Source: Nitratireductor sp. (GTDB lineage Bacteria; Pseudomonadota; Alphaproteobacteria; Rhizobiales; Rhizobiaceae). From it: a stretch of DNA of 53,834 bases. The notes below the pieces were generated by a model that had not been told where the DNA came from, searched no databases, and saw nothing but the letters and a program-made list of their open reading frames with translations. The stretch covers positions 1-53,834 of the forward strand of contig JAGRLT010000142.1 in the NCBI GenBank assembly GCA_020441665.1. Reading direction: 5' to 3'. Of the stretch, positions 32,226 to 53,834 are shown piece by piece (within the stretch, counting starts at the first letter, position 1; each line of letters starts with the position of its first letter). Both the position numbers and the translations under genes were made by a program.

Positions 32226-32351
32226 GCCGGTTTTCCGCCTTTGGCCGTCTTGCTGGGAGATTTTCTGGCGAGGCAACCGTCGATAGCATAACTCGGTGAA
32301 GGTCATAACCCCCCACTTGCGTTTCCCGCCGCTTTTGGCAACACTCCCCGC

Positions 32352-32405
32352 CGAGGACCAAACTCCCTGCATTCAAACGATTCCGGCCGAGCGTGAAAGG
32401 CTTCA
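32352..32405 (+). repeat. decayed right end of the hairpin-rich repeat element
   Basis: GACCAAACTCCC, then CAAACGATTCC and GCGTGAAAGGCT, match in order and spacing the right end of the element at 33056-33389. No left end is nearby. It lies in the divergent promoter region between the symporter genes and the response regulator, and its last bases (GTGAAAGG) supply the ribosome-binding site and possible GTG start of that regulator. Confidence 0.75.
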
Positions 32406-32407
32406 GC

Positions 32408-33058
32408 TTGTCGAATGAACTGACCATTCTGGTTGCTGACGATCATCCTTTGTTTCGCGACGCGTTGCAAAGCGCGATCGACGGTCTCGGCAGAAAGGTG
32501 TTCGTCAAGATGTCGGGGACCTTCGGCGAGGCGATCGAAACGCTCGAAGACGGCTCGGGCGCCGACCTTCTCCTGCTCGATCTCAACATGCCGGGTTCGC
32601 AGGGCCTGACGGGGCTCACCCAGATCAGAACCCGGTTTCCCGACGTGCCGGTCGTCGTCGTTTCGGCTACCGAGGATGCGGCGACGATCCGCAAGTCGCT
32701 CCGGCTCGGGGCCTCTGGCTATGTCCCCAAATCCTCGAGCCTCGGCGACATTCGCCGGGCCATCGATACGGTGCTTGCCGGGGATCTGGCGGTGCCCGCC
32801 GATATCGATCTCGAAGCCGGGGACCATGACGAGACGGCCGAGTTTCTCGAGCGCCTGCAGAGCCTGACGCCGCAGCAGATGAAGGTGCTCGGCATGCTGG
32901 GACAGGGGCTGCTCAACAAGCAGATCGCCTATGAGCTCGGCGTTTCGGAGGCGACCGTCAAGGCCCATGTTTCGGCCATCCTGCTGAAACTCAATGTCGA
33001 CAGCCGCACCCAGGCCGTCATCGCCTATTCCCGCCTTGGTCAGGGCGCCGCCGGCTAG
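32408..33058 (+). CDS. LuxR-family response regulator
   Basis: About 216 residues. The receiver domain has the acidic pair in VADDHPLF (11-12), phospho-acceptor Asp58 in LLLLDLNMPG, and Lys108 in GYVPKSSS. A NarL/LuxR helix-turn-helix follows (LTPQQMKVLGMLGQGLLNKQ and ELGVSEATVKAHVSAILLKL). No sensor kinase is adjacent. It is divergent from the sodium:solute symporter pair and probably regulates it, as response regulators often do beside such symporters. The start is a TTG at 32408 with AAAGG 7 bases upstream; GTG at 32393 is an alternative. The TAG stop lies in the left end of the downstream repeat element. Confidence 0.87.
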   Translation: MSNELTILVADDHPLFRDALQSAIDGLGRKVFVKMSGTFGEAIETLEDGSGADLLLLDLNMPGSQGLTGLTQIRTRFPDVPVVVVSATEDAATIRKSLRLGASGYVPKSSSLGDIRRAIDTVLAGDLAVPADIDLEAGDHDETAEFLERLQSLTPQQMKVLGMLGQGLLNKQIAYELGVSEATVKAHVSAILLKLNVDSRTQAVIAYSRLGQGAAG

Positions 33059-33389
33059 AGCCTTTCACGCTCAGATGGAAGCAGTTTGAATGGACGGATT
33101 TTTCGCCTCTGACGAGGAGAATACCGCAGAGCGATGCCCCTTGGTTCATTGGGCATCGGTCGAGGATTTCGACAAAGTCAGAGCGGAAAGGACACCACAG
33201 CAGGGAGTTCAGGCATTTGAAAAATAAATGGTTTCTGCAATCGTCTGAACTTGGTTCTTTGACCTTCGGCCATGGGTGTTCTTTGGGTCGCGAAAAGCTA
33301 ACAGTGCCTGCACTGCGTCGCTTTCCGCTTCTAGCCGAAGACCAAACTCCCGGCGTCCAAACGATTCCATCTGGGCGTGAAAGGCTCTA
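33056..33389. repeat. TA-flanked hairpin-rich repeat element with terminal inverted repeats (MITE/RIME-like)
   Basis: About 334 bp. The left end TAGAGCCTTTCACGCTCAGA (33056-33075) and the right end, read in reverse complement, match over about 26 bases with one mismatch through GATGGAA. Both ends are bounded by TA, as in elements that target TA. Inner hairpins are CGATGCCC/GGGCATCG (33132-33158), GTTCAG/CTGAAC (about 33208-33250), CAGTGC-CT-GCACTG (33302-33315), and a module bounded by CTTCGGC and GCCGAAG (33264 to about 33340). No open frame inside looks real. The right 128 bases recur in inverse orientation at 53709-53834. The 33390-33507 remainder of this gap holds only a weak small open frame. 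Confidence 0.82.
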
Positions 33390-33391
33390 GA

Positions 33392-39451: not shown

Positions 39452-39722
39452 TAGGCTGTATCGACATTCAGGATTGGTGCGCGGTAGGGATGAAAATCGG
39501 CCAGTTTCAGGAGCGGAGCCGCGGCAAGGCCGGTCGCCTTTCAAGGCTCCGCGACGCCGAAATGGGCGATTTTCGCCCTATCCCTGCGGGACGCGGCGGA
39601 TTTTTGCCCCTGGCTGCGTTGAAAACCCCTTATGGTGGGCGGCACCATGGCGGTCTTTTCGCCTTGCCAGAGACAAAATCCGTCTCGCGCCGCGCCCGAA
39701 ACCTGAAGGTCGATACAGCCTA
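39452..39722. repeat. TA-flanked 271-bp fold-back element (MITE-like), second family
   Basis: The left end TAGGCTGTATCGACATTCAG (39452-39471) and the reverse complement of the right end agree over 24 bases with two mismatches, and each end abuts TA. The inside folds into two long imperfect hairpins. One (about 39480-39590) pairs AGGGAT with ATCCCT, AAAATCGGCC with GGGCGATTTT and CGGAGCC with GGCTCCG. The other pairs GGATTTT with AAAATCC. There is no transposase frame. It shares no sequence with the other element. Its right end is 10 bases upstream of the apaG start. Confidence 0.82.
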
Positions 39723-53708: not shown

Positions 53709-53834
53709 TAGAGCGTGTCTTGTTTAGATGGAATCGTTTGAACGCCGGGAGTTTGGTCTTCGGCTAGGAGCGGAAAGCGACGCGGTGTGAACACCGTTAG
53801 CTTTTCGCGACCCAAAGAACACCCATGGCCGAAG
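53709..53834 (-). repeat. inverse copy of the hairpin-rich repeat element (right half, cut by the window edge)
   Basis: Read in reverse complement, these bases follow 33264-33389 almost throughout: CTTCGGCCATGGGTGTTCTT, the GTCGCGAAAAGCTAAC block, a small hairpin, GCGTCGCTTTCCGCT and GACCAAACTCCCGGCGT. The outermost 15 or so bases next to the TA differ. The element continues beyond the window. It lies directly upstream of actS. Confidence 0.88.

Follow-up and report, generated by a model that had tools for sequence, protein, structure and literature searches.

A gene-free miniature element with IS630-type ends and a folded core in Nitratireductor

A stretch of 53,834 nucleotides from Nitratireductor sp. 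(contig JAGRLT010000142.1, here called the window) contains, at positions 33056-33389, what is very probably a gene-free miniature element with IS630-type ends, insertion at TA within YTAR, and a folded core that resembles an inverted dimer; its movement by IS630 transposases and the role of its fold are what we infer about it. A MITE of an IS630 transposon is a kind of element already known and, as such, this one is ordinary. Unusual is the core, which is kept as a shape behind the ends of two transposase families. MITEs are commonly regarded as the worn-out remains of transposons and are defined by their ends, whereas here the ends change and the folded middle persists across a bacterial class. 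If the fold acts at the level of DNA and is needed for movement, the question why self-complementarity is so frequent among bacterial miniature elements becomes open to testing. It is now also possible to recognise, as one family, unannotated repeats that interrupt assemblies and occupy stop codons.

The element and its relatives in the window

The whole element (33056-33389, minus strand, both TA copies included) is delimited by its inverted ends, its TA borders and its BLAST copies. The reference strand of the family, called the E strand (left end GGAATC..., right end GGAAGC...), corresponds to the minus strand of the window. The inverted arms, 33055-33089 and 33356-33390, are 35 nt long and 86% complementary, and TA is present at the left and the right border. 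An ORF scan detected no open reading frame of 60 aa or more inside. The terminal inverted repeats, the border TAs and the lack of an internal transposase, all described in the initial annotation, are thus found as stated, and so is the likeness to MITEs in style: the element is short, transposase-free and multicopy, with inverted ends.

One neighbor is a LuxR-type response regulator (PF00072 and PF00196; ORF 32393-33058) and the other a DUF6460 gene (PF20061; 33508-33774). The stop codon of the regulator is a TAG made of the border TA and the first G of the element, as had been proposed. The regulator has not been shortened, as its C-terminus (AYSRLGQGAAG) ends at nearly the same residue as those of two relatives (AYSRLGGSAE and AYSRLGGSAA).

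Related sequence recurs in the window. The left 126 bases of a further copy, of the TAGAGCGTGTCTTGTTTAG type, occupy 53709-53834 on the plus strand, where the contig end cuts the copy. Covariance model R1 describes the folded unit of the right half, which in the 33056 copy spans 33087-33204 on the minus strand (97.8 bits); it also matches the left half of the 53709 copy on the opposite strand (53739-53832, 21.7 bits). Starts of 125 bases identical to that copy are found at the ends of contigs C125 and C22, which suggests that recent copies have broken the assembly. A decayed end fragment, detected by BLAST on the minus strand at 32350-32402, lies just upstream of the response regulator, which therefore has element sequence on both sides. 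A third relative, absent from the list in the initial annotation, is a divergent superfamily member at 39452-39722 (plus strand) with an R1 core at 39587-39691 (41.2 bits). Its ends (TAGGCTGTATCGAC..., arms 20/22) are unrelated to those of the 33056 copy and represent a further end type.

Copies and host genomes

The genome that contains the window is an incomplete assembly of 3.34 Mb in 173 contigs. It gave at least 51 BLAST matches with E<=1e-3 among the 40 of 54 first-look candidates that were scored, some of these rows being the opposite arm of one and the same copy. Together with the recurrence from 53709 and at 32350-32402, this bears out the earlier suggestion of a dispersed family; the possibility then allowed, that only the first copies exist, is removed by copies in many genomes, and no copy was noticed, in passing, inside a larger transposon. 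At 16 of the 30 own-genome loci taken, the match reaches to within 8 bases of a contig end, which indicates that the repeat breaks the assembly. Some partial copies in this genome are identical, three of them over 125 bases and two pairs over 126 and 127 bases respectively, which points to recent movement. Two end types coexist in it. With 3 mismatches allowed, TAGAGCCTTTCACGCCCAG was found at 35 places and its reversed pattern, the control, at 1; for TAGAGCGTGTCTTGTTTAG the places number 25 and the control 0.

DNA matches were obtained in 15 of 151 related genomes, the own genome included, with at most 4 candidates scored per genome. The complete genome G004 has at least 40 places, full or partial, 40 of its 92 candidates having been scored. 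A pattern scan of GTDB contigs matched 70 stretches from taxa that include Ahrensia, Oricola, Notoacmeibacter, Nitratireductor, Mesorhizobium and Cohaesibacteraceae, and further a 'Rhodobacteraceae' MAG and Hyphobacterium (order Maricaulales). The viral_contigs set had no match to the exact core pattern. Among plasmids there was one partial match, in Hoeflea sp. IMCC20628; the surrounding 6.3 kb contain a single mobile gene, which encodes an IS6 transposase and lies about 2 kb from the match.

A set of 91 distinct full-length copies was assembled, in which identical sequences are counted once and L092 and L119 are left out. The length is 307-314 bp in 82 of the 91 and exactly 311 bp in 37. The element thus has the many dispersed copies expected of a MITE. 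Two copies of G004, L103 and L115, have mismatched arms from different end subtypes, as if recombined. At L183:64-372 the right border abuts another GAGCGTTGTT start, and the two copies apparently share one TA.

Insertion sites and gene context

For ten insertion sites, the two flanks were joined and the resulting sequence was sought in seven genomes of the genus. At the site that L009 occupies in the own genome, G005, G001 and G004 have an unbroken sequence with a single TA; the G005 relative of the interrupted gene is LysE-type (PF01810). The sites of L088 and L073 are empty in G005 and read GACTAG and CGCTAG, with one TA each, the right flanks diverging soon after the junction. Insertion at these three sites was therefore precise and duplicated TA, and the check suggested by the initial annotation turned out in favor of TA duplication. 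The verdict rests on L009, L088 and L073, with L002, L005, L006, L007 and L011 outside it; divergence prevented a clean alignment of L073 and L088 with G004, and of L004 and L001 with two genomes each. The letters TA at 33056-33057 and 33388-33389 are read as the two copies of a target duplication, which itself is demonstrated at the empty sites of other copies.

The G005 reading frames at the L088 and L073 sites are open for 288 and 227 codons and end exactly at the TAG of CTAG, so that these two insertions hit and rebuilt stop codons. Of 72 copies, 65 lie in a YTAR target (CTAG 36, TTAG 15, CTAA 9, TTAA 5), 19 of the 91 having been dropped for want of two TA borders or of six flanking bases, and YTAR tetramers make up 4.8% of the TA sites in the window. 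The base after the left TA is G in 71 of these 72 copies. After the right TA this base is variable, with G in 55 copies, A in 14, T in 2 and C in 1, and the duplication is therefore TA, not YTAR.

Gene context was determined for the 84 copies that have 400-base flanks (7 of 91 were dropped) with home-made gene calls, which replaced a cruder home-made caller that had left many sides uncalled. The flanking genes are codirectional at 45 copies, convergent at 26 and divergent at 11, with one side uncalled at 2. Their orientation is weakly biased: right neighbors point toward the element in 54 cases and away from it in 28, with 2 uncalled, and the corresponding numbers for left neighbors are 44 and 40. 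At 33 borders, 22 of them right and 11 left, the element's own TAG serves as the stop of the abutting frame; at least one of the genes concerned (L009) was cut by the insertion, so not all of these stops are natural stop codons. One copy, L006 (G000:C9:5388-5698), has inserted in the middle of a sequence whose inverted arms are CTTCTCCCCC and GGGGGAGAAG and which may be a terminator.

The ends and the IS630 family

The right end of the window copy (33056-33082, plus strand) has TAGAGC, TC at positions 10-11 and GAAGC at positions 23-27, and its IS630 PWM score is 23.7. The left end (33363-33389, minus strand) has the same TAGAGC and TC with GAATC at 23-27, and scores 20.0. The matrix consists of 17 ends; 7 of 12 plasmid IS630 loci, ISRm2011-2 among them, gave clear TA ends, and the 5 loci without such ends were left out. 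Positions 1-6, 10, 11, 16, 23-25 and 27 are shared, in register, by the IS630 ends and those of the element. At positions 7-27 the element ends (22 each) stand at z 15.8 (left) and 15.6 (right) against shuffles. At position 26, 86 of the 91 left ends of the element have T and 85 of the 91 right ends have G. This difference, GAATC on the left and GAAGC on the right, is also found in the IS630 ends, where GAATC occurs in 9 of 9 left ends and GAAGC in 4 of 8 right ends.

The element thus combines TA duplication with an end sequence of the IS630 type, as an IS630-derived element should. It resembles the IS630 insertion sequences of Hyphomicrobiales (ISRm2011-2 and relatives), which are TA-bounded and have TAGAGC..TC.....GGAATC/GGAAGC in the same register, and part of which share the left/right difference. 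These are about 1.03-1.06 kb long and carry a transposase, whereas the element has a folded core and no transposase. The agreement in register and the shared left/right difference lead us to read it as a non-autonomous element moved by IS630, and comparison of the sequences provides good evidence that IS630-family transposases are what would mobilise it. The initial annotation had considered the element not identifiable as a described family; its ends now connect it to a described transposon group.

IS630 transposases were searched for with the PF13358 profile in the own genome (G000), G001, G004 and G087. No intact IS630 was detected by this profile among G000, G001 and G004, the last being the genome rich in element places. 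The one match in G000 is a truncated relic in which the first reading frame is open, the second is shortened and the left end is TAGAGCGGATCATTTTCTGACTGAATC; an autonomous partner is thus represented in this incomplete assembly by a relic only. G087 has two matches, one below the family cut-off, and its IS630 is 1027 bp long and TA-bounded, with ends TAGAGCGTGTCACTTGCTGACTGAATC and TAGAGCGCGTCACGTATTGATTGAAGC. Both the G087 IS630 and the G000 relic start with TAGAGC...TC...GACTGAATC. The IS5 and IS1182 transposases of G004 and G000 were considered as partners and rejected, since the inverted repeats around them are not TAGAGC ends. According to a table in PMC3281130, elements of the IS5/IS427 group also leave 2-bp duplications; this group was looked for through PF01609 only. 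At L234 (G004:C1:16881-17324) the reading frame of an IS5-family transposase continues into the final part of a ZntA-like P-type ATPase.

The fold and its strand symmetry

The region 33056-33389 folds with -151.4 kcal/mol on the plus strand and -144.1 kcal/mol on the minus strand. Both values lie at z of about -8 relative to 100 shuffles each, none of which folds as low, and the earlier description of a structured element is upheld. The structure was analysed in 22 representatives (mean pairwise identity 0.66) over the 77 pairs common to the consensus folds of both strands. In this structure 93.3% of the cells are paired (77.7% in shuffled sequences), 52 of the 77 pairs have changes on both sides (33.7 shuffled), and covariation is 0.462, compared to 0.169 for shuffled and 0.081-0.114 for slid alignments. 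Strong covariation spans 8 helices.

Such a pattern could belong to a strand-specific structured RNA gene (a riboswitch, guide RNA or sRNA) dispersed by chance, and both the strong covariation in 8 helices and the near-constant length of the copies would agree with it. Selection on an RNA should, however, cause G-U exceptions to far exceed A-C exceptions on the strand of that RNA. Counted over strand-neutral pairs, exceptions in the element number 55 G-U and 44 A-C, and those in RNase P 81 and 13 (Fisher p=3.4e-6); the internal helices alone have 46 and 29 (p=3e-4 against the same control), and both p-values are optimistic because the cells count sequences, not events. The control consisted of 17 RNase P genes treated by the same procedure (mean identity 0.74, 13 of them from genomes of the element alignment), with the split gene of G138 and a second G113 gene left out. 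In an alignment of 55 copies, from which L092, L119 and L096 were left out, the counts are 125 and 91. The G-U excess expected of a strand-specific RNA is therefore not seen in the helices.

The symmetry is not perfect. Each strand's own best fold favors that strand, and on its own best fold the E strand has a mild G-U excess of 127 to 52 (RNase P, 157 to 15) and folds slightly better than the opposite strand. The orientation of the flanking genes is, as described above, only weakly biased, and no Rfam family reached its gathering score at 8 loci and the window region, where weak matches to MS2 and sR32 were dismissed as far below their cut-offs. An RNA gene on a single strand was consequently rejected as the main reading on the G-U and A-C counts against RNase P, and is very unlikely.

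The balance is compatible with a fold that acts in the RNA of whichever strand is transcribed, since selection on both strands would also equalise G-U and A-C. The hairpins would then determine where an mRNA ends at its 3' side, how stable it is or whether RNase III cleaves it, effects attributed to Correia elements in PMC2649163. The position of most copies behind genes, codirectional or convergent, and the 33 borders at which an abutting frame stops at the element's TAG would suit such a role, but a preference for YTAR together with the loss of gene-breaking insertions can explain the same positions, and we consider this reading rather unlikely.

Equally, the pairing might not be selected at all: the arms would change together under one transposase, and the internal hairpins would be perfected by arm copying through template switching. 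The changes are mostly whole Watson-Crick swaps, and the terminal helix is balanced (G-U to A-C, 9:15 in the 22 representatives and 31:30 in the 55 copies). For the terminal helix, co-evolution of two ends read by one transposase is sufficient; the internal helices need more. The covariance model still recognises the internal fold across the class, and loops, unpaired motifs and length would not be expected to persist under drift alone. Unselected pairing is thus also improbable, to a similar degree.

A core that works as DNA is the most likely reading, if still a tentative one. Foldback at the DNA level is somewhat likelier than either the role in RNA of both strands or the unselected copying of arms, and the three are not firmly separated.

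Proposed mechanism of movement

By combining these observations, it is possible to outline how the element might move. An IS630-family transposase, made elsewhere, would recognise both ends by the TAGAGC tip, the TC at positions 10-11 and the GGAATC or GGAAGC at positions 22-27. Where the DNA is single-stranded or supercoiled, either strand may fold back and so bring the two ends together as a pair for the transposase. The transposase would then excise the element and join it to a TA within YTAR, the TA being duplicated in the process. Insertion into a C-TAG stop codon would rebuild the stop, and the gene would thereby be spared.

Relation to other bacterial repeats

The bacterial MITEs Correia/CREE, ERIC, RUP and QMITE have transcripts that are predicted to fold. 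They and the present element are alike in being short, gene-free, multicopy and mostly intergenic, with inverted ends. Unlike them, the element keeps its core fold through paired changes across orders while the letters turn over, keeps it nearly alike on both strands, and consists of two similar inverted halves.

The RIMEs are about 100 bp long, much shorter than the element. Membership in the RIME or AB,C palindromic repeats of rhizobia would agree with the same order and the same intergenic style, but is highly improbable in view of this length. For S. meliloti, PMC2573895 mentions RIMEs, Sm-repeats and AB,C palindromes. No description of the present family was found in the open-access literature searched, most subscription papers being outside the scope of the search.

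A core resembling an inverted dimer across the class

The left half of the window copy (approximately 33230-33369, minus strand) is a diverged inverted homologue of the right unit. Aligned with the reverse complement of the right half, the left half gives z 7.7 for the consensus and z 1.1 to 10.2 for single copies, 17 of 22 copies being above 4. After removal of the 36 end positions the consensus remains at z 6.2 and 15 of 22 copies are above 3, the lowest being at -0.3. These alignments suggest a core made of two copies of a single folded unit of roughly 130 nt, inverted relative to each other and diverged.

Building a covariance model had been recommended at the start. Searched with model R1 of the right unit (E<=1e-4, a maximum of 10 candidates being scored in each genome), 385 genomes of the class yielded 30 with matches, the own among them; 20 of these 30 have more than one match. 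Two adjacent R1 matches on opposite strands occur at L266, L271, L284 and L265, and partly at L274. Ends were classified by cut-offs of our own at 20 of 29 class-wide loci, 6 having given no ends and L272, L275 and L282 having doubtful ones (15/22): 11 are IS630-like, 3 IS1380-like and 6 others. The others include L270, framed inside its true end and IS630-like in appearance; for L281 two end searches chose different ends.

The core-bearing elements of G438 and G514 have IS1380-type ends, TAGCCCGCATTTCTCACC. This assignment is based on comparison with an IS1380-family element with its transposase in G206 (G206:C46:15454-17099; NF033539, E 2e-121), whose ends, TAGCCCGGATTTCTCAC, are 1646 bp apart. 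IS1380 insertion sequences have ends of the form TAGCCCG(C/G)ATTTCTCAC, equal or nearly equal to those of the G438 and G514 elements and different from those of the window copy at 33056. Related ends and TA borders were found at 5 of 6 plasmid IS1380 loci, the Acetobacter locus being the one without. For IS1247, a member of IS1380, a table in PMC3281130 gives a 5-bp duplication.

A possible, somewhat more doubtful reading of the core as a whole is that of a class-wide DNA parasite, whose heritable part would be the folded inverted-dimer shape, refitted with the ends of unrelated transposases and outliving each of them. Such a parasite would carry IS630 ends at most of the loci examined, IS1380 ends at others, and further types, for example that of 39452-39722 in the window.

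The IS1380-type end TAGCCCGCATTTCTCACC also occurs near the ends of two viral contigs of IMG/VR, L318 and L319, and in L319 it is found at both ends.
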